Below, piece after piece: positions 3,040 to 22,583 of a stretch of 34,448 nt of DNA. Both the position numbers and the translations under genes were made by a program. The DNA is from Phenylobacterium sp. (lineage in GTDB: Bacteria > Pseudomonadota > Alphaproteobacteria > Caulobacterales > Caulobacteraceae). The notes below the pieces were generated by a model that did not search any database, was not told the origin of the DNA, and worked only from the letters and a program-made list of their open reading frames with translations. Numbering within the stretch: position 1 is the first letter of the stretch; each line of letters begins with the position of its first letter. The stretch is taken from contig NZ_SSMZ01000244.1 of the NCBI RefSeq assembly GCF_004799395.1, positions 1 through 34,448 on the forward strand, in the 5' to 3' direction.

Positions 3040-5232
3040 ATGGCTCTCGAAATTGCGGTCGGGCCGCAGAAGTTGGTCATCAATCAAGGCTCGGGCTTCG
3101 CTGTCACGGAGCAGGATGGCCAGATCAACTGGCCTACCGACAAGGGGGTCTACTACTCCGACACCCGGATGATCTCGAGCTGGCGGATTTATGCGGACGG
3201 CGAGGAGTGGGACCTGCTCAACTCCGGCAACATCGCCTTCTTCGCCGCGCGCATCTTCCTGGCCAATCGCAAGCTGATCACCGAGGCCGGCGAGGTCGCC
3301 GCGGGAACCCTGGGGCTTGCCGTCAGCCGATCGCTTCAAGGCGGCATTCACGAGGACTTCGATCTCGTGAACCACGGCTCGTCGACCGCCCAATTCAACC
3401 TCGAAATCGCCCTGCGCAGCGACTTCGCGGATCTGTTCGAGGTAAAGTCCGGGGCCATCGTGCGGCGCGGTCATGTCGCCACGAGTTGGTCCAGAGCTCG
3501 CCAGACGCTCACGACCAGCTACGCCAACAAGGACTTCCATCGCCGCGTGACGGTCCAGGTGCGCAACGCCGAGTCTGCGGCGGTCTACGCCAACGGCCGC
3601 CTCAGCTTCGACATCGAGCTGGCGCCCGGCGCCACCTGGCATGCCTGCCTGCTCTACGCCTTCTCCAACGGCAAGACGAAGGCAGCCGCACCCAAGGAGT
3701 GCATCGACCATGCCCTGCAGGCTAAGTCCGCCAGACATCTCGTGGAATGGCAGGCGAAGTGTCTGGGGCTGAAGACCAGCAACCAGGAGTTCTATCGCTT
3801 CTACCACCAGTCGCTGGAGGACATGGGGGCTCTGCGCCTGCCGCTTGAGGGCACGGACCACCTGGGCTTCGTGCCGGCTGCGGGGATTCCCTGGTTCGTC
3901 GGCCTGTTCGGGCGCGACAGCCTGATAGTCTCGTTGCAGAACGCAATGGTCTACCCGGACTTCCCGCGCGGCTCCCTGGAGGTCCTGGGCCGCCTGCAGG
4001 CCCGCAAGCGCGACGACTACCGCGACGCCGAGCCCGGCAAGATCATGCATGAGCTGCGCACCGGCGAGCTCGCCCACTTCAAGATGATTCCGCACACGCC
4101 CTACTACGGCACGGCCGACGCAACGCCGCTTTACCTGATCGTGCTGCACAACACCTGGCGGTCCATCGGCGACGCTGGCCTGCTGGAGCGGCACATGGCC
4201 ACGGCCGAGCGCTGCCTGGAATGGATCGACACTTACGGCGACCGTGACGGCGACGGCTTCCAAGAATACCAGACCCGCTCGACGGCCGGCTACGAGAACC
4301 AGGGCTGGAAGGATTCGGGCGAGGCGCTGGTCTATCCGGACGGGACCCTCGTGAAGGGCCCCAAGGCGCTCTGCGAGCTGCAGGGCTATGTCTACGACGC
4401 CTGGCGGCGGATGGCCGAAATATATGATGCGCTCGGCAAGCGTCAGCGCGCCGCGGGACTGCGCACCAAGGCCGCCAACCTCTATCGACGGTTCAACGAC
4501 ACGTTCTGGAACGAGGAAGAGGGTTTCTACGCCTTCTGTCTCGATGGCGACAAGACGCCCGTATGGAGCGTCGCCTCTAACCCGGGGCACTGCCTGTGGT
4601 CCGGCATCGTCCCGCGCGACCGCGCGGCCCGCGTCGTCAAGCGGCTGATGGCCGAGGACATGTGGAGCGGCTGGGGCATCCGAACGCTCTCGGCCAAGCA
4701 CGCCGCGTTCAATCCGCACTCCTATCAGAACGGATCGGTCTGGCCGCACGACAATGGGCTGATCGCCCTGGGTTTCCGACGCTACGGTTTCGCCGACGAG
4801 GCCGCGATGATCGCGCGCGACCTGAGCCGCGCGGCCAGCTATTTCGAGCAGCACCGCATGCCGGAGCTCTACGCGGGTCTGCAACGCGACCCGACCAACT
4901 TTCCGGTGCAATACCTCGGGGCCAACGTACCTCAGGCTTGGGCGGCGGGGTCCTGCTTCTGGCTCCTCCAGGCCATGCTGGGGTTCCAGGCCGACGCGCC
5001 TGACGACAGGCTCTACCTTGACCCGGCGCTTCCCGAATGGATGCCAGATGTGGAGCTGAAGAACGTGCAGGTTGGCCGCCGAGGCTTCGACATCGGCTTC
5101 CATCGACAGAGCGACGGCAAGACGACGTGGGAAGTTCTGCGCGGCGACCAACGCGCGGTCTCTCAGCGCAGCATCGCCACCTTTGGGGGCGGGGATTCCG
5201 CGGCGCCGGACATAGCCGTCACGGCGGCATGA
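3040..5232 (+). CDS. Amylo-alpha-1,6-glucosidase-type glycoside hydrolase (glycogen debranching N-domain family)
   Basis: A 730-residue protein. The first ~200 residues match the glycogen-debranching-enzyme N-terminal beta domain (opening VINQGSGFAVTEQDGQI, then YYSDTRMIS), followed by an (alpha/alpha)6 barrel with the signatures FGRDS (290-294), HTPYYGTADATPL, HSYQNGSVWPHDN and MPELYAG. Such proteins hydrolyse alpha-1,6 or related alpha-glucosidic bonds, although for most bacterial members the substrate (glycogen, trehalose-like or mannosylated glycans) has not been measured. No signal peptide, so intracellular. AGGA lies 5 bases ahead of ATG 3040. The stop overlaps the gluconokinase start by 4 bases, which argues for translational coupling and a shared role in glucose supply. 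Length is normal for the family. Confidence 0.88.
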   Translation: MALEIAVGPQKLVINQGSGFAVTEQDGQINWPTDKGVYYSDTRMISSWRIYADGEEWDLLNSGNIAFFAARIFLANRKLITEAGEVAAGTLGLAVSRSLQGGIHEDFDLVNHGSSTAQFNLEIALRSDFADLFEVKSGAIVRRGHVATSWSRARQTLTTSYANKDFHRRVTVQVRNAESAAVYANGRLSFDIELAPGATWHACLLYAFSNGKTKAAAPKECIDHALQAKSARHLVEWQAKCLGLKTSNQEFYRFYHQSLEDMGALRLPLEGTDHLGFVPAAGIPWFVGLFGRDSLIVSLQNAMVYPDFPRGSLEVLGRLQARKRDDYRDAEPGKIMHELRTGELAHFKMIPHTPYYGTADATPLYLIVLHNTWRSIGDAGLLERHMATAERCLEWIDTYGDRDGDGFQEYQTRSTAGYENQGWKDSGEALVYPDGTLVKGPKALCELQGYVYDAWRRMAEIYDALGKRQRAAGLRTKAANLYRRFNDTFWNEEEGFYAFCLDGDKTPVWSVASNPGHCLWSGIVPRDRAARVVKRLMAEDMWSGWGIRTLSAKHAAFNPHSYQNGSVWPHDNGLIALGFRRYGFADEAAMIARDLSRAASYFEQHRMPELYAGLQRDPTNFPVQYLGANVPQAWAAGSCFWLLQAMLGFQADAPDDRLYLDPALPEWMPDVELKNVQVGRRGFDIGFHRQSDGKTTWEVLRGDQRAVSQRSIATFGGGDSAAPDIAVTAA

Positions 5233-5780
5233 CCGCGCCCGGTCCCGTTCCGCGCGGCCCGGCGACGGTGCTCGTGGTGATGGGTGTTTCCGGCGCCGGC
5301 AAGACGACGATCGGCGCGGCCCTGGCCGAACGGCTCGGCTGGACCTTCCAGGAAGGGGACGACTTCCACCCCGCCGCCAACCTCGCAAAGATGAAGGCCG
5401 GCAAGCCGCTCGACGACGCCGATCGCGCGCCCTGGTTGGCCAGGGTGGAGGCCTGGATCTCCGCCCAGCTCGCCGCCGGCCGCTCTGGGGTGATCACCTG
5501 CTCGGCCCTGAAGCAGACCTACCGCAGCGCGATCATCGGAGGCCGCAGCGACGTGATCCTGGTCTATCTGAGCGGCAGCCGGCAGATCATCCAGCAGAGG
5601 CTGGAGAAGCGGCGGGGTCACTTCATGCCATCCAGCCTCCTGGCCAGCCAATTCGCCGCGCTTCAGACGCCGGTGGCGGGCGAGAAACCGATCGTCGTCA
5701 ACATCGACCAACCGGTCGCCGCCCAGGTCGATGAGGTCGTCGCCTCGCTGGCCCGTCGCCTGCCTGGGTCCTCAGCCTAA
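5229..5780 (+). CDS. gntK: Gluconokinase (GntK family)
   Basis: 183 residues, ATP + D-gluconate to 6-phosphogluconate, feeding the Entner-Doudoroff or pentose phosphate route in the cytoplasm. The P-loop GVSGAGKT is at 19-26, followed by the family marks EGDDFHP (42-48), MKAGKPLDD, APWL, CSALKQTYR and the RRGHFMP lid sequence. All catalytic elements appear intact and the length is typical. ATG 5229 overlaps the stop of the upstream glycosidase gene (ATGA), so the two are co-translated. The SDR gene facing it ends 6 bases away, so both transcripts must terminate within or past each other's ends; no hairpin is visible in the gap. Confidence 0.95.
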   Translation: MTAPGPVPRGPATVLVVMGVSGAGKTTIGAALAERLGWTFQEGDDFHPAANLAKMKAGKPLDDADRAPWLARVEAWISAQLAAGRSGVITCSALKQTYRSAIIGGRSDVILVYLSGSRQIIQQRLEKRRGHFMPSSLLASQFAALQTPVAGEKPIVVNIDQPVAAQVDEVVASLARRLPGSSA

Positions 5781-7466: not shown

Positions 7467-7663
7467 GTGGCGGGTCACATCCCTTCGCGAAGCTCAACGA
7501 CCGTTTTTGGGTCGGTTTTCCCCGTTGGGCCAGAGCCGAAAATTTGCCATTCGCGGAGCCGGCGACTTGGCGCGCGCGAAGGGCGAGTTTCTGGAGCTGG
7601 CCCAATGGCTGCTGATGGCGCATTTGCGACGCCAAGTTCGACAGGCTTGTGGAGCCTCAGCCT

Positions 7664-9634
7664 CTATTGGCCCGCTTGCGCATTGCCAACCTTTCCGGGT
7701 GTGGCGCCCGCCAGGCGCGCCTCAATCATGGCTCGGTCGGGGGATGAAAGGTCCAGGCTCGCAGCCACCAGGTAGTGGTTTCGGGCTTCGCCGCCGTGTC
7801 CGAGGCGTAGCAGAGCGTCGCCCCAGACAAGGTGGTTGTGTCCCCAGCGCGGACTGCGCTCGGCGGCCTGGGCGAACATGGATGCGGCGCCTGCGTAGTC
7901 GCCTTTCCTCGCCAAGGCCTCTCCCCAGGTTTCGAGCGGATCAGCGAAGCGGGGGGACCTCTTGTGGGCCAGCGTCGCCTTCGCGATGGCGCCGTCGAGA
8001 TCGCCGCGGGAAAGCAGGCTCGCCGCCCATTCGGAGGGGCCCATCGACGCATGCGGGCTTTGCCGGTCGAGGTCGGCGAACCAGTGATCCGCCGCCGGCC
8101 AATCCCGTTCGAGCCCGGCGATGTCGGCGCGAACTTCCAGGCAGCGATAGCAGTCGAGAGGGGCGCCGGCGATCAGCGCCTTCGCCTCCTCGAGCCGGCC
8201 AAGATGGGCGTAGGCCTGGGCGAGCAGAGGCGCCACGATGGTGCGCTGGGAGTCGCCGCCAAGCTCCGGATCGCCGCGGCCTTGCTCCAGCCGGGCGGCG
8301 ACCTGCGCCCAGTCGCCGAGGGTCGTCCCCCGGCCGGGGATTGCCTGATAGCTGTTGGTGTCCATCGGCCCGGCCTCGGCGCGCTCGGCGGCCGTAATCT
8401 CATGCAGCAACGACAGCGCCCGCGCGCGAAGGTGCTGCGGCAGGTAACCGCCCGCACGCCCCTCCAGGTCGAAGGCCGCCATCTGCCCCAACAGCGTCGT
8501 GGTGGTCTGGAAGTCGCTGTCATAGAAGGCTTCGACGGCCTTCAGGAACCGCACCCGGCCGCTGATGTCGCCTGCAGGACGACCGATCCCGCTCCGGTCC
8601 TGTAGCACGGCGAGTTCGCGGCCCGGATTGTCGAAGCCGACCTCCCAACGTCCGACCGCATCGCTCGAAACGCCCAGGATCTGATAGGGCGGATCGAGCT
8701 TTGGATCGAGCGCGATCGCCGCCCTGGCCATCCGGATGGCGTCGTAGTGGCGGCCTTCCCCCTGAAGGATCGACGCCCACCCGGCGTAGGCCCAAGGCCG
8801 GTCCTCGGCGGGCCCGGACTTGGCGAGGCTCGCGAATACGGCGGCGGCCTCCTCATGCCGACCGAGAGAGGCCAGGTAGACGCCGTATCGGTAGGGCTGG
8901 GTCTGCCTATAGAGCGCCTCGGCCGCCTGGCCGATCAGGCCGTCCAGATCGACCTCGGGGCCTTGGATCTCCTGCGCGTCCGCCGCCCCCGAGCGGGCGG
9001 TGATCTGCAGCCCCGCCGGCCCACGGACCACCTCGCCGCTGACGCGGGTCACCTGGCCCAGTCCGTCTCGGAGCCACCCGGTCAGCTCCTCTACCGAGAC
9101 CCCGGTCTCCGGAATCTCGACCTTGATGTCGTTCCCCCAGTCGTTGGCGTAGGTCGAGGCGGGCCGGGTGGAGACGGTCTCGGCCTGTAGTTGCGCCAGA
9201 CGGTCCTCGATGCGGGCGGCGACGACCTGCCCCGTCAGGCCCCGGGCTACGAAGTCCGAGGGGACGGAAAACGGTGCGATCAACAACCCCCGCGCCTCGT
9301 GCGCCTGCCAGGCCATCACCGCCACGGCGCCGGCCACCAGGACGCCGACCAGGGTGGTCATCGCCTGGAGCGCAAGGCTGACGCGATCTTTCCAACGGCC
9401 GAGCCGAAGGCGGGATAGGACAAGCTCCCGCTGTTCGCTCAGATCCTCCTTCTGCAGGCGGATCAGGTCGATCTGCTCATCGAGGAACACGTCGAGCTTC
9501 GGATCGTCGCGCTTGCGGCCGCCCTTGCGAAGACCGAGCGCGATCGCGGTTGCGGGCCTGATCGCCTCCAGACCTGCGTCCAGCTCGGCCTCCGGCCCCG
9601 AGATCTCCTCACCCACGGCCCGCGCCCCCGACAC
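7664..9634 (-). CDS. Single-pass membrane protein with TPR-rich periplasmic domain
   Basis: 656 residues, rightmost start GTG 9634 (a second GTG at 9616 is as plausible; neither has a strong ribosome-binding site). An acidic/basic cytoplasmic N-terminus of ~85 residues contains a helical DEQIDLIRLQKEDLSEQREL segment, followed by one membrane span at about 88-109. The region after it (110-220) resembles a ligand or partner domain with DWGNDIKVEIPETGVSVEEL, and the rest is made of degenerate tetratricopeptide repeats, clearest at ~245-300, ~440-500 and ~540-640 (for example KGDYAGAASMFAQAAERSPR). Similar proteins in Caulobacterales are uncharacterised; a scaffold for periplasmic protein-protein interaction is the safe inference. 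No partner gene lies alongside. Confidence 0.8.
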   Translation of the reverse strand: MSGARAVGEEISGPEAELDAGLEAIRPATAIALGLRKGGRKRDDPKLDVFLDEQIDLIRLQKEDLSEQRELVLSRLRLGRWKDRVSLALQAMTTLVGVLVAGAVAVMAWQAHEARGLLIAPFSVPSDFVARGLTGQVVAARIEDRLAQLQAETVSTRPASTYANDWGNDIKVEIPETGVSVEELTGWLRDGLGQVTRVSGEVVRGPAGLQITARSGAADAQEIQGPEVDLDGLIGQAAEALYRQTQPYRYGVYLASLGRHEEAAAVFASLAKSGPAEDRPWAYAGWASILQGEGRHYDAIRMARAAIALDPKLDPPYQILGVSSDAVGRWEVGFDNPGRELAVLQDRSGIGRPAGDISGRVRFLKAVEAFYDSDFQTTTTLLGQMAAFDLEGRAGGYLPQHLRARALSLLHEITAAERAEAGPMDTNSYQAIPGRGTTLGDWAQVAARLEQGRGDPELGGDSQRTIVAPLLAQAYAHLGRLEEAKALIAGAPLDCYRCLEVRADIAGLERDWPAADHWFADLDRQSPHASMGPSEWAASLLSRGDLDGAIAKATLAHKRSPRFADPLETWGEALARKGDYAGAASMFAQAAERSPRWGHNHLVWGDALLRLGHGGEARNHYLVAASLDLSSPDRAMIEARLAGATPGKVGNAQAGQ

Positions 9635-9853
9635 ACCCCAGGATCAACGCTATGCCGTGGACGAAAAAGCGCAAGTCAGGCGGGTCGAGGCTTCGAGCCG
9701 GACGTCCAGGCGAGAGAAGGCCACTGGTCCGCTTGCCGGCCGATCGTCAATGTCTGTTTCTGGCGCGCCTGAGACTCTGCAGATCGAGCGTGGATGACTC
9801 TTAGCTGACCCTCGGACATTCCGCTTGCGGACGCCTATCCGCGCCGCTCGGCG

Positions 9854-10567
9854 TCACCAGGGGACGGTCCGACCATTGCGATCAAGGAAATGCAGGCCGG
9901 CGGCGCCGTCCTGGGCGATGAGCGCGTCGACGATCTCCGGCATCGCGTCTTCCACGCTGAACGGCGCGTTAGAGCCGCCCATGTCCGTGCGAATCCAACC
10001 CGGCGCCATGAGGACCAGCGCGCAAACTTCGCTCGCGTGCCGGCCCGCGTAGCTCGACATCGCTTGGTTTAGGGCCGCCTTACTGGCGCGGTAGACGTCG
10101 TTGGTTCCATTGGCGTTGTTGGTGATGCTGCCTTGACCGGAGGACATCACCCCGATCACGCCGCCCGGCCGGGCCAAGACCCCGAACGCTTCCACGGCGC
10201 GCATCACGCCCAGGACGTTGGTGACCATGACGTGGACAAAATCGTCCGTCGAAACGCCAGCCATGGTGTCTCCCGGGGACGGATTGACGACGCCGCCGTT
10301 GATGAAGACGATGTCGAATTGACGGCCCAAGAGGCGATCCCGCACGGCCAGGATCTGGTCGTGGTCGGTCATGTCGAGTGTCTCGATCTCGACGAGGTCG
10401 GGCTGCTCCGCGGCGAGGCCGTGAAGCGGTGTGCCGGGCGCCCGAACGGTGCCGAGCACGCGCCACCCCCGTACCGCGAATTCGGCGGCCATTGCATAGC
10501 CCAGGCCGCGCGACGCGCCGACGATGAGGATGGAGCGGTGGGACGGGGCCGAGGTTGGGCTATTCAT
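9854..10567 (-). CDS. SDR-family NAD(P)-dependent oxidoreductase
   Basis: 237 residues from ATG 10567 (the longer frame would need a TTG start five codons earlier; GAGAGATCC lies upstream of the ATG). GASRGLG is at 17-23, NGG at 90-92 in place of the usual NAG, and Ser142/143, Tyr159 and Lys163 (YRASK) complete the active site. The short length, NGG and GHxxGRTVPW ending place it with atypical 'C-factor/sniffer'-like SDRs. It lies 54 bases downstream of the MDR gene on the same strand and is probably co-transcribed with it, under the divergent XRE-type regulator. Substrate unknown. Confidence 0.88.
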   Translation of the reverse strand: MNSPTSAPSHRSILIVGASRGLGYAMAAEFAVRGWRVLGTVRAPGTPLHGLAAEQPDLVEIETLDMTDHDQILAVRDRLLGRQFDIVFINGGVVNPSPGDTMAGVSTDDFVHVMVTNVLGVMRAVEAFGVLARPGGVIGVMSSGQGSITNNANGTNDVYRASKAALNQAMSSYAGRHASEVCALVLMAPGWIRTDMGGSNAPFSVEDAMPEIVDALIAQDGAAGLHFLDRNGRTVPW

Positions 10568-10621
10568 GGCTGGATCTCTCAAAAAAACACGCGGTGGTCG
10601 GCAGTTCGCCAGACCCGCCCG

Positions 10622-11692
10622 CTAACCTTTGTCCGGCCGGATGACCGTGAGTTGGCGTGGCCCGGCGTTGGCCGCGGCGTAGGCGACGGCGGCATTGGCC
10701 TCGTCCAGCGGGAATTCAGCCAGATCGAACTGGCCAAGGTCGATCAAGCCCGAGCGGACCATTTGCACCATACGCGGCACGGCTTGCGGCGGGTACATCC
10801 ACACGCCCCGCATGGTGATCTCACCGTGCATAAGCCAGTTGTAGTCGAGGCCCAGCTCGGCGCGGACGCCGCCCATCAGGATGATGCGGCCACCATGACG
10901 CACAGCCATCAGGTTGGCGTGCACTTGGCCCAGCGAGGCTTCACGCGGTAGGAAATCCAGCACCATGTCGATGGGTCCGCCGGCGGCCTTGGCGATGGCC
11001 CCCCGGTCGGCGGCCTCGTCGCCGGTCATGGGAACCGGCACTACTCGCGGGCCGAAGCGGACGGCGAGGTCGTCCAGCGTCTGAGCGTTGCGCCCCGTCG
11101 CCACGACCTGGCCGGCGCCCATGGCCAGGGCCACCGCCACGCCGGCGCCGCCGAACCCGCCGGTGGCGCCGCTGACCAGCAGGGTCTCGCTTGCCTTCAG
11201 GTCGCCGGCCCAGAGCCCGCCGTAGGGCACCAGCAGGCGACTGAGCCCGCACCAGCGCCCGGCGTCCTTGGGATCTATTTCGCCGATCCGCGTCACGTTC
11301 TCAGTCGGGACCATCATCTGCTCGGCGTAAGAGCCGTTGCGGTAGAGACGGTGAAGCGGCAGCGCCGCATCGGTGCGGTACGTCCAGCCCTGCAGGATTT
11401 GGTTGGACGCCTCGTCCCGCGCCCGGATCGTCGGCTCGCAGAACACCCAGTCTCCGGGCTGCAGCCGCGTCGCGTCCGGGCCTACCGATCGCACCCGTCC
11501 GATCCCGCCCGGACCGGGGACTGCCGGAAGTTCCAGTCGATAGTTGCGGGAGCCGTTGAAGACGTTGGCGGCGTAGGCGGTCACACCCGCCGCGGCGACA
11601 TCGATCGCCACCGACCCCGCGCCGGGTGTCGGATCGGGCAGGGTCTCGATCTTCAGCGTCTCGCCAAAGGCGTTCAGTACAGCAGCTTTCAT
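10622..11692 (-). CDS. MDR-family (quinone oxidoreductase-like) dehydrogenase, zinc-free
   Basis: 356 residues. The N-terminal GroES-like domain has the PVPGPGGIGRVRSVG stretch and the Rossmann domain has GATGGFGGAGVA from residue 175, both typical of medium-chain dehydrogenases/reductases. The catalytic zinc ligands of alcohol dehydrogenases are absent: the position of the usual Cys is GVTAYA (36-41). It should therefore act as an NADPH-dependent quinone/enone reductase or similar rather than a zinc alcohol dehydrogenase. GGAGAAG precedes ATG 11692. First gene of a probable two-gene operon with the SDR, divergent from the regulator gene, a classic arrangement for regulation of detoxification genes by the adjacent regulator. 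Confidence 0.88.
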   Translation of the reverse strand: MKAAVLNAFGETLKIETLPDPTPGAGSVAIDVAAAGVTAYAANVFNGSRNYRLELPAVPGPGGIGRVRSVGPDATRLQPGDWVFCEPTIRARDEASNQILQGWTYRTDAALPLHRLYRNGSYAEQMMVPTENVTRIGEIDPKDAGRWCGLSRLLVPYGGLWAGDLKASETLLVSGATGGFGGAGVAVALAMGAGQVVATGRNAQTLDDLAVRFGPRVVPVPMTGDEAADRGAIAKAAGGPIDMVLDFLPREASLGQVHANLMAVRHGGRIILMGGVRAELGLDYNWLMHGEITMRGVWMYPPQAVPRMVQMVRSGLIDLGQFDLAEFPLDEANAAVAYAAANAGPRQLTVIRPDKG

Positions 11693-14735: not shown

Positions 14736-16175
14736 TCAGGTTTGTCGCTGCCAGCCGCCGCCCAGCGCCTTGAAGACCGCGATCTGATCCTGCACCAGGG
14801 CGGCGTCGGATTGCGCCACCGCGGCGTTGGCCCCGATCAGGGTCTGTTCGGCGACCAGCACATCGAGGGGGCTGACGGAACCGGCCTCCAGGTCGCCGCG
14901 CACCAGGCGGAACGCTTCCTCGGCCCGGACCTGGACGTCGCCCAGCGCCTGCCGGCGGTCCAGTTCGGCGCTGTAGATAGCCAGGGCCTGCTCGGCCTCC
15001 TTGAGCGCCCGCAGCACCACAGAATCGAAGCCGTCGAGGGCTGCTGAGGCGCCGGCCTGCGCCTGGCGCACGCGGGCCCGCGGACCGGCCTGGTTTGGGA
15101 AGGTCCAGCTAATCGACGGGCCCACGCCCCAGATCAGGCCCGCGTTGCGGGTGAGATCGGCGAGCGTGACCGCCGCACCGCCGTAGAAGCCGCGGAGCGC
15201 GACGCGCGGATAGAGGTCGGCGGTGACGACGCCCACCCGCGCCGTGGCGGCCGCCAGCCGCCGCTCGGCCTCGCGGACGTCCGGACGGCGGCGCAGCAGG
15301 TCCGCGCCGTCGCCCACGGGGATCAGGGCGGTAAGCCTGGGCGGAGTTTCGCAGGCCAGCGCCTCCTCCGGCGCCTTGGCCGGCGTGCGGCCCAGCACCG
15401 CAGCGAGTTGGAACAGCGCCGCACGGCGCTGGCCCTCCAGGGGCGGGATGGCGGCGCGCGCCTGGGCCGCCAAGCCTTCGGAGCGGGCCACCTCGAACTG
15501 GGTCCCGGACCCCGCCTCGCGGCGTTGGCGGGTGATCTGCGCCTCCCGGGTCGCAAGATCGAAGGCGCGGCGGGCCACGGCAAGCTGGGCGCCCAAGGCG
15601 CAGACCTCGCCATAGGCGCGCGCCGTCTCGGCGGCCACGGTAGTCTTCACGAGGTCGCGGGCGGCGGCGGTCGCCTGGGCGTCCGCGCGCGACGCCCCGA
15701 CGGCGCGGCGGACGCGCCCGAACAGGTCGAGCTCGTAAGAGACCTCGAAGGTGTCCTCATAGAGCCAGATGCTCTCGGGCTTGTGGCCCCCGAGCTCCAG
15801 GATCTCCTCGGTGGCCGGGTCGCGGCCGTAAACGCTCCCGGAGTTCAGTGTCGTGCTGGGGTAGCGGCCGACTTTGGCGGCCTGGAGCACGGCCCGGGCT
15901 CCGGACAGGTTGGCTTCGGCGGCCTTCAGGTCGGTGTTGGCGGCGAAGGCCTCGGCGACATAGGCGTCCAGGTGAGGATCGGCGTAGAGGCGCCACCACG
16001 CATCCGGCGGGGCCGTGGGTTCGGCGGCGGCGGGCGCGGCGCTCGCCAGCGGCGCGGCGGCGCCGGCTGGCGGCGCGGGGACCGCGTACTTCGGCCCCAC
16101 GACGCATCCGCTGAGCGCCGTCATCACCAGCGCCGTCGCCGCCAGGGCGCACGGTAGGCGACTCCAGGCGTTCAT
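14736..16175 (-). CDS. Outer membrane efflux lipoprotein (NodT/OprM family)
   Basis: 479 residues. Lipobox ALSGC with Cys at residue 24 and the following VVGPKYAVPAPP are typical of NodT-type outer membrane factors. Two OEP repeats are visible, with long alpha-helical hairpins (ARAYGEVCALGAQLAVARRA; EAEQALAIYSAELDRRQALG), giving the trimeric TolC-like tunnel. It is the outer membrane exit of the tripartite pump encoded by the two upstream genes; its ATG overlaps the MFS gene's stop by 4 bases. An alanine/proline-rich stretch (32-60) follows the lipid anchor. Confidence 0.93.
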   Translation of the reverse strand: MNAWSRLPCALAATALVMTALSGCVVGPKYAVPAPPAGAAAPLASAAPAAAEPTAPPDAWWRLYADPHLDAYVAEAFAANTDLKAAEANLSGARAVLQAAKVGRYPSTTLNSGSVYGRDPATEEILELGGHKPESIWLYEDTFEVSYELDLFGRVRRAVGASRADAQATAAARDLVKTTVAAETARAYGEVCALGAQLAVARRAFDLATREAQITRQRREAGSGTQFEVARSEGLAAQARAAIPPLEGQRRAALFQLAAVLGRTPAKAPEEALACETPPRLTALIPVGDGADLLRRRPDVREAERRLAAATARVGVVTADLYPRVALRGFYGGAAVTLADLTRNAGLIWGVGPSISWTFPNQAGPRARVRQAQAGASAALDGFDSVVLRALKEAEQALAIYSAELDRRQALGDVQVRAEEAFRLVRGDLEAGSVSPLDVLVAEQTLIGANAAVAQSDAALVQDQIAVFKALGGGWQRQT

Positions 16176-17782
16176 AGGACGGCCCTCTCTTGCGAGGCGA
16201 AGAGCGGCAGATGCGACGCCGGTCCGATCGGCGCGGGCTTGTGCGCCATCACCAGTATCAGGGCGATGGCGGTCAAGGCACCGACCGCCACGAAGCTGTC
16301 GATCACGCCCTGGGTGGCCGCGGCGCTGCGGACGATGCCGGCGAGCGCGGTCACGGCCTTGCCGGCGGCGGCCGTGGGATCACTGGTGCGCCGGAACACC
16401 GCCGCATAGGCGGCCAGCCGCTCCATCACCCGTCCGTCGCCGGCCTGGATGTGCTGGCCGATCAGGTTGGAGGCGGTCTGGGTGCGGACGCGAGTCAGGG
16501 TGACCACAAAGGCTTGGCCGAGCTGGCCGCCCATCAGCCGAGCGGTCTGGACAGCGCCGCCAAAGGTCAGAGCGTCCTCCGGCCGCAGGTGCAGCACTGC
16601 GAAGAACAGGATGCCGGACAGCGCGAAACTCTGGCCGATCGCCTGGAGGAGCTGGCTCGGCAGGAACTGTTCCGATCCCCAGAGCGGCGTCAGGTTGTGG
16701 GCCACCAAGAGGCAGGCGATGCTCACGAAGATGAAGCCGATCGAAGCCACCAGCCGCGGGTCGGTGCGTCTCAGGAAAAGCGCCGCCAGCGGGCAGAACA
16801 CCAGTTGCGGCGCGGCGATCCAGACCAGGGTCCCCCCCACCTCAAGCGCGCGATAGCCGCGCACCGCCTGCAGGTATTGTGGGATCAGATAAGCGGTGGA
16901 CAGGATCGTCAGCCTCAGGAATGCGATCAAGACCAACAGCCGCGGCAAGGGCGCGGCGAAGAGGACCTTCAGGTCGACCGCCGGATGACGCGCGCGGCTT
17001 TCGTGCAGCAGGAAGCCCGCCACCAGGACCCCACCGGCCGCCAGCAGGGCGACGACCTCGCCAGAATGCAGCCAGTCCAGACGGTTGCCCTGATCGAGAC
17101 CGGCGTAGATCAGCGCCAGGCCAATGCCGCCCGCCGCCAGGCCGTAGAGGTCGGCGCGCGGCGCATTCGGCAGGGGCGGCGTGCGCGCAATCCCGAAGTG
17201 CAGGCAGGCCGCCATGCCCAGCGCCAGCGGCACGTTCTGCCAGAAGATCCACCGCCAACTCATGTGGTCCACGTACCAGCCCTCCAGCGACGCGGAGATG
17301 TTGAGGGAGAGTTCCAGATTGAGCGCATAGATCGCCACGCCATAGGCCCAGTACTTCGGCGGCAGGGCGCGCAGGATGAAGCCGAGGGTGAGCGGCACGA
17401 AGAAGCCCGAGGCCAGCCCGCCCATGAACTGCAGCCCGAGGAACATCGGCAGGTTCGCCGAATAGGGAATGACCGCCGAGATCGCCGCGAACGCCAGGGC
17501 GGCCTCCAGCAGCGTGCGCCGGGGCCCGTAGACGCCGCCGATCCAGATCGCCACGGGGGCGATCAGCATCTGCGCCACGGTCTGGGCGGTGGTGATCCAG
17601 GCCCCGTCGTCAAAGCCGGCGTGAAGGGCTCCGCGGATGTCGGCCAGCCCGAACGTCGACAGCCGGCCGTTCAGGGTCGAGATGAAGGTGCCCAGCAGGA
17701 CGGCGATGAGCCCGAGCCAGGGGATCGGCGCATCCGGCGCGGCTGTCGGCGGCCCGGGAGCAAGGGGCGGTTCCTCGCTCAT
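16172..17782 (-). CDS. MFS drug/proton antiporter, DHA2 family (EmrB-like)
   Basis: 536 residues with about 14 hydrophobic spans, the DHA2 hallmark. Early features: PWLGLIAVLLGTFISTLNGR in span 1, FDDGAWITTAQTVAQMLIAP in span 2 and the loop GGVYGPRR; a conserved FFVPLTLGFILR lies in span 4. It would drive proton-coupled export of hydrophobic compounds across the inner membrane, working with the HlyD-type adaptor upstream and the outer membrane factor downstream. Overlaps of 4 bases on both sides show a tight operon. Substrate unknown. Confidence 0.93.
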   Translation of the reverse strand: MSEEPPLAPGPPTAAPDAPIPWLGLIAVLLGTFISTLNGRLSTFGLADIRGALHAGFDDGAWITTAQTVAQMLIAPVAIWIGGVYGPRRTLLEAALAFAAISAVIPYSANLPMFLGLQFMGGLASGFFVPLTLGFILRALPPKYWAYGVAIYALNLELSLNISASLEGWYVDHMSWRWIFWQNVPLALGMAACLHFGIARTPPLPNAPRADLYGLAAGGIGLALIYAGLDQGNRLDWLHSGEVVALLAAGGVLVAGFLLHESRARHPAVDLKVLFAAPLPRLLVLIAFLRLTILSTAYLIPQYLQAVRGYRALEVGGTLVWIAAPQLVFCPLAALFLRRTDPRLVASIGFIFVSIACLLVAHNLTPLWGSEQFLPSQLLQAIGQSFALSGILFFAVLHLRPEDALTFGGAVQTARLMGGQLGQAFVVTLTRVRTQTASNLIGQHIQAGDGRVMERLAAYAAVFRRTSDPTAAAGKAVTALAGIVRSAAATQGVIDSFVAVGALTAIALILVMAHKPAPIGPASHLPLFASQERAVL

Positions 17783-18849
17783 CGGATGCGATCCTCGGCG
17801 TCGATGCGGGCGACCACCGACAGGCCCGGCCGCAGCCGGTCGCCTAGACCTGCCGTGTCGTCGAGGGCGATCTTCACCGCGACGCGTTGCACGACCTTGG
17901 TGAAGTTGCCCGTGGCGTTGTCCGGCGGCAGGAGCGCGAACTGCGAGCCGGAGGCCGGAGCGAAGGCCTGCACGTGGCCGCGCAGGACGCGACCGGGGAA
18001 GGTGTCCACGCGGACCTCGGCCTTCTGGCCCACCGCCATGTGGGTGAGCTGGGTCTCGCGGTAGTTGGCGATCACCCAGACATGCGGCAGGGGCGTGAGG
18101 GTGTCGACCTGGCCGCCGACGCCTACGAACTGGCCGGGCCGCACCTGGCGCTGGCCGAGCACCCCGTCCACGGGGGCTGTGATGCGGGTGTAGCCGAGGT
18201 TGAGGCGGGCCTGCTGCAGGTTCGCCGTCTGGGCCGCGACGGCGGCCTCGGCCTGCGCGCGCTGGGCGGCGAGCACGTCGCGCTGCTTGCGCGCCGCGTC
18301 GGCCTGAGCGCGGGTCTGGGCGAGCTGGGCGGCGAGCTGCTGGCCGGCGGTGTCCAGCCGCTCGCCGGCCTCCGCCGAGGACGAACCGCCCGCCACCAGC
18401 CGGCGCTGGCGGGCCACGTCGCGGCCGTTCTGGGTCAGGTTCGCCGCAACGCTGGCCACCTGGGCCGCGGCCGCCGCGACGTTGGCCCCTTGCAGGGTCT
18501 CCTGTGCGTGCAGCGCCGCGACCTGGGCCTTGGCCGAGGCCACCCCCGCTTCTGCCTGGGCGAGCGCGGTGCGGTAGTCGTCATCGGTGATTTCGGCGAG
18601 CAGCTGCCCCGCCCGCACCCGCTCGAAGTCGGAGACCGGTACGGCGTGCACATAGCCGGCCACCCTGGCGGCGATCGGCGTGATATCAGCCTGCAGGTAG
18701 GCGTCGTCGGTGTTCTGCCAGCCGGCTCGGCCCTGCCAGCCGTTCCATCGGGTGGTGACGATGATCAGTATGAGCAGGGCCACGATGAAGACGAGGGCGC
18801 GCCACGCGGCCTCCAGCAGGAAGCTCCGGTCGATCTTGAGCCGCTTCAT
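17779..18849 (-). CDS. HlyD-family membrane fusion protein (EmrA-like)
   Basis: 356 residues from ATG 18849, preceded by GGAGGG at 5 bases; the frame extends 26 codons further but that part lacks the family pattern. A single membrane span is at about 17-33, then the biotinyl-lipoyl half motif (NTDDAYLQADITPIAARVAG), a long coiled coil rich in Ala/Gln (residues ~95-205) and the second lipoyl half (LGYTRITAPVDGVLGQRQVR). It is the periplasmic adaptor linking the EmrB-like pump and the outer membrane factor. First gene of the efflux operon; no local regulator gene is visible on either side. Confidence 0.93.
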   Translation of the reverse strand: MKRLKIDRSFLLEAAWRALVFIVALLILIIVTTRWNGWQGRAGWQNTDDAYLQADITPIAARVAGYVHAVPVSDFERVRAGQLLAEITDDDYRTALAQAEAGVASAKAQVAALHAQETLQGANVAAAAAQVASVAANLTQNGRDVARQRRLVAGGSSSAEAGERLDTAGQQLAAQLAQTRAQADAARKQRDVLAAQRAQAEAAVAAQTANLQQARLNLGYTRITAPVDGVLGQRQVRPGQFVGVGGQVDTLTPLPHVWVIANYRETQLTHMAVGQKAEVRVDTFPGRVLRGHVQAFAPASGSQFALLPPDNATGNFTKVVQRVAVKIALDDTAGLGDRLRPGLSVVARIDAEDRIR

Positions 18850-19428
18850 GGAGACCCTCCAATCCCGCTCGCCATAGGCTTCCAGGATGACGTATTCCCG
18901 GCCATCCGGCATGAAATGGATAGACACCCGCTTTACGCCACAAGCGGGCGCTGGATTATGGGCCTGAAGCGGATGGTCGGGTTGTTTTGCACCAAGCTAC
19001 CGGTCCGACAGGCCATCAACGAGCGCATCTTGCACACGGTCTCGCTTCCTCTTCGGGTTCCAGCCGACCAGGGGCCTTGAGGAATCCGTAGCAGCCGCGT
19101 CCGATCATCCCACAAGGCTTTCGTTGCGCCCAATTGGATCGGCTCACCAGCGATCACTTCGAGCCGGTCCTGGAACACGACGCCTGGCGGTTCAGCTCCG
19201 CCGTCGGCCGCTTCCACCAAAGGTTTCGTGGTCGTCATGGGGCAAAGGTTCAAGCACCCGGTAACCCCTCGTCTGAGCTAGCCAGGGCCTTGATTTGATC
19301 CGTCCATTCATGGGCTGATCGCCGCCAAAGCTGAATACTGGGGGCTAGACGCCCCACCAGAGAGGCTTCCATGGGCGTCCATCAGCCCAGGTCCAGTTTC
19401 CCTTCGCGGACACTGTGCTGGCCCCGCT
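18850..19428. other. Long intergenic region upstream of the efflux operon
   Basis: 579 bases that must contain the efflux-operon promoter. A 106-codon open frame on the minus strand (19253-18933) has no good ribosome-binding site or recognisable similarity, and I do not call it a gene. The right half carries a strong hairpin and a wider inverted repeat downstream of the PQQ dehydrogenase gene, listed separately. No TGATCC-type or other clear promoter was found in front of the efflux operon. Confidence 0.5.
19311..19389. repeat. Nested inverted repeats downstream of the PQQ dehydrogenase gene
   Basis: An outer perfect 9-bp pair, TGGGCTGAT (19311-19319) and ATCAGCCCA (19381-19389), encloses an inner hairpin GGGGC-TAGAC-GCCCC (19341-19355). 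It starts 40 bases after the stop of the leftward PQQ dehydrogenase gene. No T-tract follows the stem on either strand, so an intrinsic terminator is possible but not shown; a folded mRNA 3' end or an insertion-sequence remnant are alternatives. Confidence 0.4.
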
Positions 19429-21099
19429 TCATCGCGGGAGGCGCGAGACGTACTTGGGAATGGCGCTGATCTCGGCGTCGGACAGCGCGCTGGCAAAGGA
19501 CGGCATGGCGCCCTCGCCGGTGCGGATGATGTCGGCAACGAACGCCGTGTCCGTGCGGGCCGCTATGCCTGGGCCGATGGCGCCGGCGCCCTGGGCTCCG
19601 TGACAGGCGGCGCAGACACGGCCAAAGGCGGCGCCGCCGAGCGCAAGCTCTTCGGGCGTCGCGGCGGGCAAGGCGCCTGGCGCCGGCGTCGCGGGCGTGG
19701 CCGGGTCTTGGCCGGGACCTGTCGGTGTCGCTGAAGCGACAGGGACGGCGAGAGGAACGCGGGGCGTTGGAATGGTCCGGGCAGGGACCAACCGCAGGAT
19801 CTCGTTCTGGTCCGGCGGCATCTGGTCGGTCAGGATGTAGATGTCGCCGTCGGGGCCCTGATTGATGACCTTGATCCGCTGGCAGCGGTCCATCAGCAGC
19901 TTTTCCTCCGACACCACCTTCTCGCCCTGCATGACGAGGCGCGTCACCTGCATGCCCGACAGGCCGCCGATGAAGAGGTTGTTCTTCCAGCCCGGGAAGG
20001 CGGCGGCGGTGTAGACCATCAGGCCAGAGGGGGCGATCGACGGGTTCCAGTAGTAGAGCGGCTGCTCGATGCCTTCCTGAGCCGTCTTGCCGCCGTTGAT
20101 CATGGCGCCCGAGTTCTGGCGGCCATAGGACACTTGCGCAAAACCATAGTTCTTGCCCTTGCGCATGACGTTGATCTCGTCCCCGCCCTTGGGCTCGTTC
20201 TCGGCGACCCACAGCTCACCCGTCTGGGGGTGGATCACCGCCGAGTGGACGTCGCGGAAGCCCAGCGCCCAGATTGCGGGATTGGCCCCTGGCCTGGACA
20301 GGAAGGGGTTGTCCTTCGGGATCGTGCCGTCGGTGTTGATACGCAGCACCTTGCCGAACTGGCTCTTCATATCCTGCGGCTCGGGGCCCGCGTCCGACAG
20401 GCCGGCCGACAGAACAAGAAGGGTCCCATCGCGGCCCTGGACCATGGCGCGGGGCTGGATGTCCGCGCCCTCACGCAGGGTCTTGAGGTCTTCCAGGCTC
20501 TTCTCGTCGACGGAGAGCTTCGCGCTGACGATCCGGCCCATTGCGACCGCGTCCCCCGGCAAGCGTGTGTGATAGCCGAAGTATATCGTTCGGTTGCGGA
20601 CGAAGTTCTTGTCGAGGATGACGCCGTACATGCCCGAACCGAGCCGCGGCTGGACCATCTGCGGCACATTGGCCAAGGGGTCGGAGACCGCGCCGTTCCT
20701 GTCGACGACGCGCATGCCGCCATTGCGGAAGCTGACCAGCATCTTGCCGTCCGGCAGGAAGGTCATGCCCCAGGGGCGGTCGATCTTGGCGACGGTCTCG
20801 ACGGCGTAGCCCTGCGTGCCGCGCACGATCGGCGCCTTGGTCTGGCCCGGGAAAGCCGGCGCCGGGGCATAACCGTCGTCGGCGTTGCGGTTGGGGCCGC
20901 AGAGGGCGGCGATCCGCACGCGCTCGGCGGCGCTGCCGGCGACACCGGCAAAGTCCGGGCCCGGCGGAAACCGCGGGATCGCCGCCCTGGGCTGCGCCGG
21001 CGGCTGCTGCGACCAACCACTGGTCGACGCCGTCAGGACCAGGACGATAGACAGCGCCACGGTCGATATCGAAGCGCTGAGTTTTCCCGACTTGACCAC
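19429..21099 (-). CDS. PQQ-dependent aldose/sorbosone dehydrogenase-like protein fused to cytochrome c
   Basis: 556 residues. A signal peptide (STVALSIVLVLTASTSGWSQ) sends it to the periplasm. The main part is a GSDH-type beta-propeller (KIDRPWGMTFLPDGKMLVSF, then LGSGMYGVILDKNF, GFRDVHSAVIHPQTGELWVA, NEPKGGDEINVMRKGKNYGF), as in PQQ-dependent sugar dehydrogenases that oxidise aldoses to lactones. After a Pro/Ala/Thr-rich linker (~445-480) comes a class I cytochrome c with CAACH (496-500) and axial Met532 in AMPSF, giving a built-in electron exit. GTG 21099 is preceded by GAGGGGG. The gene has a TGATCC-N16-CGTA promoter like that of the neighbouring sigma factor. Substrate is inferred only from the family. 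Confidence 0.87.
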   Translation of the reverse strand: MVKSGKLSASISTVALSIVLVLTASTSGWSQQPPAQPRAAIPRFPPGPDFAGVAGSAAERVRIAALCGPNRNADDGYAPAPAFPGQTKAPIVRGTQGYAVETVAKIDRPWGMTFLPDGKMLVSFRNGGMRVVDRNGAVSDPLANVPQMVQPRLGSGMYGVILDKNFVRNRTIYFGYHTRLPGDAVAMGRIVSAKLSVDEKSLEDLKTLREGADIQPRAMVQGRDGTLLVLSAGLSDAGPEPQDMKSQFGKVLRINTDGTIPKDNPFLSRPGANPAIWALGFRDVHSAVIHPQTGELWVAENEPKGGDEINVMRKGKNYGFAQVSYGRQNSGAMINGGKTAQEGIEQPLYYWNPSIAPSGLMVYTAAAFPGWKNNLFIGGLSGMQVTRLVMQGEKVVSEEKLLMDRCQRIKVINQGPDGDIYILTDQMPPDQNEILRLVPARTIPTPRVPLAVPVASATPTGPGQDPATPATPAPGALPAATPEELALGGAAFGRVCAACHGAQGAGAIGPGIAARTDTAFVADIIRTGEGAMPSFASALSDAEISAIPKYVSRLPR

Positions 21100-21166: not shown

Positions 21167-21192
21167 TACGTTTGAGGGCGCCGCCAGGATCA
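21167..21192 (-). promoter_or_regulatory. ECF sigma-type promoter of the PQQ dehydrogenase gene
   Basis: On the minus strand: TGATCC (21192-21187), 16 bases, CGTA (21170-21167). The spacer ends CCCTCAAA, one base different from the sigma-gene promoter (CCCTGAAA). Transcription would begin near 21160, giving a leader of about 60 bases. TGATCC is the -35 described for the ChrR-partner sigma of Rhodobacter sphaeroides. Confidence 0.7.
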
Positions 21193-21277
21193 CTCGGCAG
21201 GCTCGCCAGGGATGAGAATCTGCGCCGTCGGATCGGTCGAGGTCATGCGGCATCGAGGCCAACGGCGCGCGCGCGGG

Positions 21278-21883
21278 CTAGATTCCGGTCAAGTCCTGGA
21301 TGCTCCTGCCCAGGGGCGTGTCCATGCGCATCGGCTTCTCGCTGGCGATCACGCAGATGCAATCACGGCCGGAGACCACCTGTGGCTGGTGATCGACCGA
21401 GGAATCCAATTCACAGAAGTCTCCCGCGGCGTAGACCTCATCGCCGTCGCGGTAGGCGCCGGCCAGCACAGTGGTGAATTCCACGCCCTGATGCCCGTGC
21501 AGCAGGAGCTGGCGCCCTGCCGGCAATCTCAAGAGATAAAGCAGCTCGCCGTTGTCTCCGTCCGGCGCGCGCCTGACGCCCATGCCGGGTGCGACCTGTT
21601 CGGGCCCGAACTCGACCCGTTCAGCTGTTGGCGCCTGCGCCTGGGAGGGTGGCGAGGGACCGTCCAACGCCGCCATGGCCTGGGCCAGCCGGCCTACAGC
21701 CATCGCGGTCGGCGGCAGCTCTCCGAGCAGGGTGAAGCCAACAGCCTCCAGCCGCGCCACATCGCCGCGACAGCCGGGGCAATATTCCAGGTGAGCCGCG
21801 ACGACGGTCGCGAACGGCGAACGCAAGGCGCCCGACGCATATTCGGCGAGGACGGCCTGCGAGGGGTGGCGGCTGGGGGTCAT
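21278..21883 (-). CDS. chrR: ChrR-type anti-sigma factor (zinc-binding, cupin)
   Basis: 201 residues from ATG 21883, which overlaps the sigma gene's stop by 4 bases. The zinc anti-sigma domain is at residues 1-75, with His6, His31, Cys35 and Cys38; a cupin-like domain follows, with His129, His131, Glu135 and His165. These are the same residue numbers (first four) and the same spacing (+2, +6, +36 for the cupin set) as the two zinc sites I recall for Rhodobacter sphaeroides ChrR. In that system ChrR holds the sigma factor inactive in the cytoplasm until singlet oxygen or related oxidants release it. The longer frame upstream is the sigma gene read in another frame. Cys175 and Cys177 near the end (DCICV) could add redox sensitivity. 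Confidence 0.9.
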   Translation of the reverse strand: MTPSRHPSQAVLAEYASGALRSPFATVVAAHLEYCPGCRGDVARLEAVGFTLLGELPPTAMAVGRLAQAMAALDGPSPPSQAQAPTAERVEFGPEQVAPGMGVRRAPDGDNGELLYLLRLPAGRQLLLHGHQGVEFTTVLAGAYRDGDEVYAAGDFCELDSSVDHQPQVVSGRDCICVIASEKPMRMDTPLGRSIQDLTGI

Positions 21884-22452
21884 GAGAGGGCTCCAACCCG
21901 GCCGCGCAATTTGGCGACGGCGAGGCGCAGCCGCGACTTGACCGTGCCGAGCGGCAGGCCCAGCTGGGCGGCGATCTCGGCCTGGGGCTTGTCTTCGTAG
22001 AACGACAGCTGGACGATTTCCATCTGCTCCGGTGGAAGCTCCGCCATGGCCTCGCGCAGGCGAGCCTGCGTCTGCGCCGCCTCGCTCGCTGTGTGGGGCG
22101 TCGTCTCCTCGACCCCCGGCTCGTGCACGCTCAAGGCATAGTTGCGGGCAGACTTTTCCCGGCGCAGGGCGTCGATCCTCATGTTGCGCGCGATGGCGAA
22201 CATCCATGCGCCAAGGCTGGCCCGTTCAGGGTCAAAACTGGCGGCCTTGCGCCAGACCAACAGCAAGGTCTCCTGGGCCAGTTCTTCGGACCGGTCGGGA
22301 GAGGCGCCGCGCAGCATGAGATAGGTCTTTATGCGCGGGGCGAAAGCGATGAAGAGCGCCTCGAACGCCGACCGGTCCTGCGACTGCACGATGCGGGCGA
22401 TGAGGGCTTCGGGGTCTATCTCCGCGGCCTCTGGCGAATGCCCACTCGACAT
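21880..22452 (-). CDS. rpoE: ECF RNA polymerase sigma factor, ChrR-associated (RpoE/ECF11 type)
   Basis: 190 residues. Sigma region 2 spans about 25-100 (LAQETLLLVWRKAASFDPER, GAWMFAIARNMRIDALRREK) and region 4 about 130-185 (LPPEQMEIVQLSFYEDKPQ, LGLPLGTVKSRLRLAVAKLR). It directs RNA polymerase to TGATCC-type promoters, two of which are visible here. ATG 22452 was chosen because GGGG lies just upstream and the N-terminus then has family length; the longer frame lacks similarity. The gene is followed by its anti-sigma gene with a 4-base overlap, and is preceded by an autoregulatory-looking promoter about 100 bases upstream. Role in singlet-oxygen or other photo-oxidative stress is inferred from the anti-sigma type. 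Confidence 0.92.
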   Translation of the reverse strand: MSSGHSPEAAEIDPEALIARIVQSQDRSAFEALFIAFAPRIKTYLMLRGASPDRSEELAQETLLLVWRKAASFDPERASLGAWMFAIARNMRIDALRREKSARNYALSVHEPGVEETTPHTASEAAQTQARLREAMAELPPEQMEIVQLSFYEDKPQAEIAAQLGLPLGTVKSRLRLAVAKLRGRVGALS

Positions 22453-22543
22453 GGAAACCCCGCTGGTCCAGGCCCGACACGCCTCGCGGCGACGATCCCA
22501 AGGCTTCAGGGCAGAACCATTTTCGCAGTTTAGAGCCATGCGG

Positions 22544-22555
22544 GTCATGCATGAC
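22544..22555. promoter_or_regulatory. 12-bp palindrome at the sigma-factor transcription start
   Basis: GTCATGCATGAC is perfectly symmetrical and lies 2 bases downstream of the -10 (22558-22561), so it would cover the start site at about 22551. A repressor bound here would block initiation. Confidence 0.45.
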
Positions 22556-22557
22556 AA

Positions 22558-22583
22558 TACGTTTCAGGGACGTCGCGGGATCA
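22558..22583 (-). promoter_or_regulatory. ECF sigma-type promoter of the rpoE-chrR operon
   Basis: On the minus strand: TGATCC (22583-22578), 16 bases, CGTA (22561-22558). The spacer ends CCCTGAAA. The predicted leader is about 100 bases. Sigma factors of this group usually activate their own operon from such a site. Confidence 0.75.

Follow-up and report, generated by a model that had tools for sequence, protein, structure and literature searches.

The window analysed here, a stretch of 34,448 nucleotides from Phenylobacterium sp. (contig NZ_SSMZ01000244.1), raises the question of whether an ECF sigma factor that is encoded together with a ChrR-type anti-sigma factor also controls the neighbouring gene for a GSDH-like propeller fused to a cytochrome c, and of what kind of protein this target would be. 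A preliminary description of this DNA had proposed that two matching TGATCC-N16-CGTA promoters place rpoE-chrR and a PQQ sugar dehydrogenase gene in one local regulon, which would tie photo-oxidative stress to electron input at cytochrome c. Our analyses lead us to consider it very probable that the RpoE of this locus recognises both sites as ECF11-class promoters, and that the product of the second is a GSDH propeller carrying a mono-heme cytochrome c. The features are collected in Table 1.

Table 1. Features of the rpoE-chrR and GSDH-cytochrome c locus (positions of the window)
Feature	Positions	Strand	Basis
rpoE, ECF sigma factor, 190 aa from the ATG at 22452	21880..22452	-	Best solved relative RpoE 2q1z, E 1.5e-36
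chrR, zinc anti-sigma factor with cupin-like domain	21278..21883	-	NCBIfam TIGR02451, 150.7 bits (cut-off 124.5)
Predicted ECF11-type promoter of rpoE-chrR (putative autoregulation)	22558..22583	-	TGATCC-N16-CGTA, read 22583-22558 as TGATCCCGCGACGTCCCTGAAACGTA; like site before 26/29 sigma relatives
Predicted ECF11-type promoter of the GSDH-cytochrome c gene	21167..21192	-	TGATCC-N16-CGTA, read 21192-21167 as TGATCCTGGCGGCGCCCTCAAACGTA; in the 178-nt gap after chrR; orthologue sites in G043, G015 and G030 (degenerate)
GSDH-like propeller with C-terminal cytochrome c, 556 residues, GTG start	19429..21099	-	GSDH domain; CAACH at residue 496

Within the locus, chrR overlaps rpoE by 4 nt, and an alternative upstream start of rpoE, a TTG at 22557, is possible. 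Downstream of the GSDH gene and on the same strand there is a run of genes for an HlyD protein, an MFS protein and an outer membrane efflux protein (14736-18927), which we take to be an EmrAB-like pump with its own channel.

Scanning both strands of the window returned the two exact matches exactly where they had first been described, with the same N16 spacing and with no third exact copy, as had been judged by eye. Shuffles of the window led to an expectation of 0.03 such sites, and a count of two was reached in 0 of 100 shuffles. The rpoE site ends 106 nt before the ATG, and the GSDH-gene site 68 nt before the GTG at 21099. The sole one-mismatch match in the window (14785-14810, plus strand) ends in CGGA and lies on the opposite strand to the gene called there. 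Across the whole window genome (G000; 4.44 Mb in 347 contigs, 99.79% complete) the exact motif occurs five times, two of these being the window sites, against two occurrences of a reversed control pattern, and the relaxed TGATCY-N16-CGTA nine times against two; the motif is therefore just slightly enriched genome-wide, and what is conspicuous is the pair in the window. By our own simple codon-score script, which is not a published gene caller, three of the nine relaxed sites are intergenic (the two in the window and one on contig C340) and the remaining six lie inside genes. The C340 site (9600-9625 of locus L129) is found 47 nt ahead of a gene at 9672-11603 whose 643-aa product has an N-terminal Trans_reg_C (winged helix) domain, and which is a possible further target.

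The two window sites also resemble each other in the last eight bases of the spacer, which the preliminary description had set out and in which 7 of 8 positions are equal. This likeness is unusual: in a pairwise comparison of rpoE promoters from relatives, covering 24 of the 26 sites found ahead of sigma genes, it was matched by 1 of 276 pairs. The spacer CCCTSAAA was accordingly considered as a recognition element and rejected: the promoters of three GSDH orthologues equal it at only 1, 2 and 1 of 8 positions, so that this half of the spacer is kept between the two window sites and not ahead of the orthologous genes.

TGATCC-N16-CGTA is the published promoter of ECF11 (RpoE-ChrR) systems: PMC5507510 tabulates the same hexamer, spacing and CGTA for P. 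syringae PSPTO_1043, and PMC4336711 does so for S. oneidensis RpoE2. The window locus shares its operon order with sigma-E (RpoE)-ChrR of R. sphaeroides, the founder of ECF11, and aligning the window ChrR to its nearest solved structure, ChrR 2z2s, revealed that all eight zinc ligands are kept, namely H6, H31, C35 and C38 in the anti-sigma domain and H129, H131, E135 and H165 in the cupin-like domain (Cupin_7, 32 bits, cut-off 27). The ligand list was taken from the account of R. sphaeroides ChrR in PMC6852236, which gives H6/H31/C35/C38 and an H-x-H-x3-E plus H pattern. When the 300 nt ahead of the sigma gene were scanned in 29 relatives from the same family (Caulobacteraceae), the best-scoring ones from 199 genomes searched, 22 had an exact site, 4 a site with one mismatch and 3 neither. 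Two of the three site-less loci have no detectable ChrR and the third has a weaker one, and ChrR is present at the other 26. The earlier view of an ECF promoter ahead of rpoE-chrR is borne out by these data, with the published tables and the 26 of 29 relatives at one mismatch or fewer adding its ECF11 identity.

The site ahead of the GSDH gene could be functional and yet be read by a different ECF sigma factor from the same genome, in which the sigma protein has 12 matches and in which a related pattern, GCATCC-N16-CGTAGCT, precedes an amine oxidase gene on contig C252, as it does a ChrR-less sigma gene in genome G169. We consider this very unlikely, because the runner-up among these matches is just 31% identical and the motif stands before 26 of 29 relatives of the window sigma factor itself. 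The GCATCC-N16-CGTAGCT variant, which lies at 4847-4872 of locus L291 (G169, contig C55) and at 7575-7600 of locus L293 (window genome, contig C252), may mark a different sigma specificity. Near the same ChrR-less G169 sigma gene, L291 also holds exact TGATCC-N16-CGTAGTGG sites at 5633-5658 and 8911-8936, one of them 18 nt ahead of the gene for a 556-aa protein that weakly matches cytochrome c.

Evidence that bears more directly on RpoE reading the second site comes from orthologous genes in other species. The closest rpoE-chrR pairs belong to three species of a genus that we label g15 (G015, G030 and G043; sigma factors 59-66% identical), and the GSDH orthologues of these species are 66-70% identical to the window protein. 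In all three the GSDH gene and rpoE-chrR are on different contigs, apart by at least about 10 kb in G043, 70 kb in G015 and 100 kb in G030. The G043 orthologue nevertheless has an exact TGATCC-N16-CGTA at -64, that of G015 has TGATCT-N16-CGTA at -65 (one mismatch), and that of G030 has TGGTCT-N16-CGTA at -81 (two mismatches, with CGTA intact and the -35 degenerate). When the upstream 120 nt were shuffled 5000 times, the fraction reaching the observed match was 0.0002 for the window gene, 0.0004 for G015, 0 for G043 and 0.03 for G030. A background of 280 genes from other genomes, limited to scores over 30 and to genes with 120 nt of sequence ahead of them and cleared of duplicates, yielded one exact match and one one-mismatch match, which are the G043 and G015 GSDH genes, along with seven two-mismatch matches, and G030 on its own is therefore weak evidence. 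Because relatives keep the site even where the GSDH gene and rpoE-chrR are far apart, promoter control is probably real. The dehydrogenase-like gene is likely a direct RpoE target, and RpoE control of it, as first proposed for the PQQ gene and the ChrR-linked sigma factor, is well supported by this comparative evidence.

These counts also address chance as the source of the second site. Chance matches do occur in the window genome, given the six of nine relaxed sites inside genes and the five exact sites against two for the control, but a chance origin appears highly improbable for a site that lies on the right strand and at the right distance in a window where 0.03 are expected, that is kept ahead of orthologues, and that finds no counterpart at one mismatch or fewer among the 278 other background genes. 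A different reading would make the GSDH gene the third gene of the rpoE-chrR operon, with the second site a relic or local copy that adds little. The shared strand, the short gap and the 7 of 8 agreement of the spacer halves, as a local copy would have it, are all in keeping with this, and no terminator-like site was found in the 178-nt gap between chrR and the GSDH gene, so that read-through from the rpoE promoter could contribute. We nonetheless regard the reading as unlikely, since the genes in G015, G030 (degenerate) and G043 are not beside rpoE-chrR and yet have a site of their own, and since a relic would hardly retain -35, spacing and -10 across genera.

Four species were found with both the sigma branch and the GSDH gene, namely the window genome, G043, G015 and G030. 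Outside these, the only upstream matches in a 27-row comparison were two with two mismatches and without CGTA (G118 and G026); L008, L007 and G103b in this set are near-copies of others, and the genes of L006, L007 and L008 equal those of G030, G229 and G247. Second GSDH copies in the sigma-bearing genomes have no site (G043b) or a two-mismatch match without CGTA (G000b). An order-level search of 30 loci, some of them repeats, returned the window gene at 0 mismatches, four two-mismatch matches, of which L310 has CGTA at -246, and a single one-mismatch match, but with a 15-base spacer (L313, -173). The proposed check for the motif ahead of orthologous genes gave a mixed outcome, with the motif present in G043, G015 and, in degenerate form, G030, all with the sigma branch, and absent before the others examined. 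The sigma search covered seven site-less GSDH-bearing genomes (G212, G220, G227, G228, G230, G249 and G262 lay outside it) and found no close sigma factor in G103, G108, G118, G184, G200 (with L007) or G201 (with L008), and in G169 a ChrR-less relative (49%) alongside a more distantly related GSDH gene that lacks the site.

A tree of GSDH proteins, built without the near-copies L008, L007 and G103b, placed G043a, G043b, G015, the window protein and the pair of G030 and G247 in a nested clade with ultrafast bootstrap of at least 95 at each fork. G247, sister to the G030 gene, has no site. Its length, identity and N-terminus mark it as the gene of L008, and in the genome that carries L008 (G201) the closest sigma match is 32% identical. 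Site presence requires three changes on this tree, a number as low in 72 of 500 shuffles of the labels, and the tree on its own proves little about the history of the site. The simplest history would be one ancestral site that was weakened in G030 and lost in G247 together with the sigma factor.

Turning to the product, the window protein has a signal-like N-terminus, as judged by eye, and is probably exported. It has the GSDH domain and, by prediction, the corresponding fold, and its cytochrome c domain (PF13442, 46.6 bits, cut-off 27) is mono-heme. The AlphaFold model (mean pLDDT 69.9, pTM 0.66; residues 1-54, 321-342 and 443-476 are among those with pLDDT under 50) predicts a propeller that Foldseek and VIA-align group with glucose and aldose sugar dehydrogenases, comparisons that barely probed the cytochrome part. 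G043a and most aligned members of the subfamily are without the cytochrome part. In locus L119 (G043, contig C53), near the contig start, there is a cytochrome c stretch at 11-235 that is like the C-terminal part of the fusion. It stops shortly before the GSDH paralogue G043b (284-1633), and is perhaps the end of another fused copy.

We asked whether this protein has the marks of a PQQ sugar dehydrogenase. Sequence alignment puts Ile214 at the position of His144, the catalytic base of sGDH, and across the subfamily this position is Ile in 9, Leu in 4 and Met in 2 of 15 members and His in none. A Ser aligns with Lys377, a residue that presumably has a role in PQQ binding in sGDH. The PQQ-dehydrogenase model NCBIfam TIGR03606 scores 92 bits, below its cut-off of 434.55. 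PqqE (TIGR02109) exceeded its cut-off in 0 of the 4 genomes, a result that comes with no positive control as the same was true of 0 of 14 control genomes, and PQQ supply from outside the cell is possible. The preliminary name of PQQ sugar dehydrogenase is not supported by these results, and the label should not be taken as established. Compared with the sGDH/aldose sugar dehydrogenase family (PF07995; 7cdy, 2g8s, 1c9u), the window protein differs in the residues at both of these positions, with Ile/Leu/Met for His144 in its subfamily, and in its C-terminally fused cytochrome c. The AA12 PQQ dehydrogenases are fungal, and in the descriptions consulted their fused heme domain, where present, is a cytochrome b as opposed to the cytochrome c here; fungal enzymes of GSDH-like fold may likewise be without the catalytic His. 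The propeller of the Hedgehog-interacting protein, an animal protein, is 18% identical to the window protein over the aligned part and presumably has no cytochrome.

Evaluating the wider regulon revealed a difference between g15 and the window genome. TGATCY-N16-CGTA counts are 19 for G015, 12 for G030 and 19 for G043, against 1, 1 and 2 for the reversed control, and 29 of these 50 sites are intergenic by our own gene calls, with an amine oxidase site in G030 counted as inside a gene owing to an over-long start call. The genes below sites in all three species include rpoE-chrR, a divergent amine oxidase gene, a lipocalin and an AhpC/TSA-type peroxiredoxin with a signal-like start (Pfam names come from one species for the lipocalin and two for the peroxiredoxin, the others being assigned by likeness of the sequence start), and a redoxin, an MsrB-type protein, a fasciclin protein and a Rieske protein follow sites in one species each. 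In G015 a gene for a SOUL-type heme-binding protein (1865-2494 of locus L279) lies directly 3' of the peroxiredoxin gene. As predicted from its promoter sites, the g15 system is an oxidative-stress regulon of the ordinary sort, of which the GSDH gene is a member. The g15 sites are dispersed, and we rejected a purely local regulon, the form in which the system had been described at first, as a general rule.

By comparison, a peroxiredoxin relative in the window genome (52% identical) has no site, and the amine oxidase-DUF1365-cfaS block on C252 has a two-mismatch GCATCC-N16-CGTA ahead of its amine oxidase gene and lies away from the rpoE-chrR locus, unlike in R. sphaeroides. With its three intergenic sites, the site-less peroxiredoxin and the two-mismatch block, the regulon therefore seems narrowed in the window genome, within the limits of a 347-contig assembly, a strict motif and a comparison of the peroxiredoxin and the DUF1365 block. 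The narrowness would be a binning artefact, compatible even then with RpoE control, if the window contig came from another organism than the rest of the assembly. That rpoE, chrR and the GSDH gene group with g15 is consistent with such an origin, as are the distances of the locus half of the window to other G000 stretches in codon usage (0.155, above their own 0.096-0.146) and tetranucleotides (0.089, just above their 0.063-0.087). Contamination of the bin is nevertheless quite unlikely in our view, since by both measures the distance of the two halves of the window to 11 G000 stretches (0.078 and 0.089 for tetranucleotides, 0.132 and 0.155 for codons) is smaller than their distance to g15 (0.117-0.167 for tetranucleotides, 0.185-0.230 for codons). 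On a more tentative reading, to which we give a minor share of belief, a singlet-oxygen sigma factor has here been narrowed to little beyond itself and a newer effector, with the His-less GSDH propeller-cytochrome c being a new exported redox protein of photo-oxidative stress and not a sugar dehydrogenase, and with the sister genus keeping a broad regulon (lipocalin, peroxiredoxin, amine oxidase block) that includes the same effector.

Under direct RpoE control, ChrR would keep RpoE inactive until it was lost under oxidative stress, which in the relatives that have been studied means singlet oxygen or organic peroxides. Freed RpoE would then transcribe its own operon and, from the separate promoter, the GSDH-cytochrome c gene, whose product would act outside the inner membrane and pass electrons to or from the pool of cytochrome c. 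We regard this scheme as the most likely one; for the loss of ChrR and transcription by RpoE it draws on sequence conservation together with published work on relatives, and for the action of the product it is an inference.

Comparison with known ECF11 systems shows which parts of this are new. In the descriptions consulted for P. syringae and S. oneidensis, the targets are photolyase, glyoxalase, glutathione peroxidase and cfa, among others, and, in contrast to the window, no GSDH-type protein is named. In R. sphaeroides, RpoE targets include electron-transport proteins (PMC6852236, section 15), the RpoE regulon as listed in PMC7074977 includes cytochrome c2 (CycA) and a fasciclin protein, the latter also found below a g15 site, and cycA P3 is named in the title of Newman et al. 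1999 (reference list of PMC6852236). The cytochrome target is thus c2 in R. sphaeroides and a GSDH-cytochrome c fusion in the window, and the preliminary claim of novelty applies to the GSDH-type target, which we did not find in print, and not to the tie to cytochrome c. No paper in the open-licence PMC literature pairs "ChrR" with "sorbosone dehydrogenase". Among the best-ranked open-licence PMC matches, which are no proof of absence, none linked ChrR, an ECF sigma factor or singlet oxygen to the GSDH enzyme class; "PQQ" with "ChrR" in PMC7074977 reflects the protease PqqL, and "sorbosone dehydrogenase" with "ECF sigma" in PMC3174227 stand in unconnected places of the text. Lineage-specific members of an "extended regulon" are described as an accepted feature of ECF11 systems (PMC6852236), and the GSDH-cytochrome c gene appears to be a real and new ECF11 target with an unusual effector, the cytochrome link itself being already known.

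Automatic labels of "PQQ-dependent sugar dehydrogenase" cover a subfamily without the catalytic histidine. The GSDH-cytochrome c gene, whose product is a probably exported redox protein, would be a lineage-specific, evolutionarily kept target in an oxidative-stress sigma system that is among the best studied. The promoter together with its target gene offers a concrete handle on the question why a response to singlet oxygen would include a propeller linked to a cytochrome.
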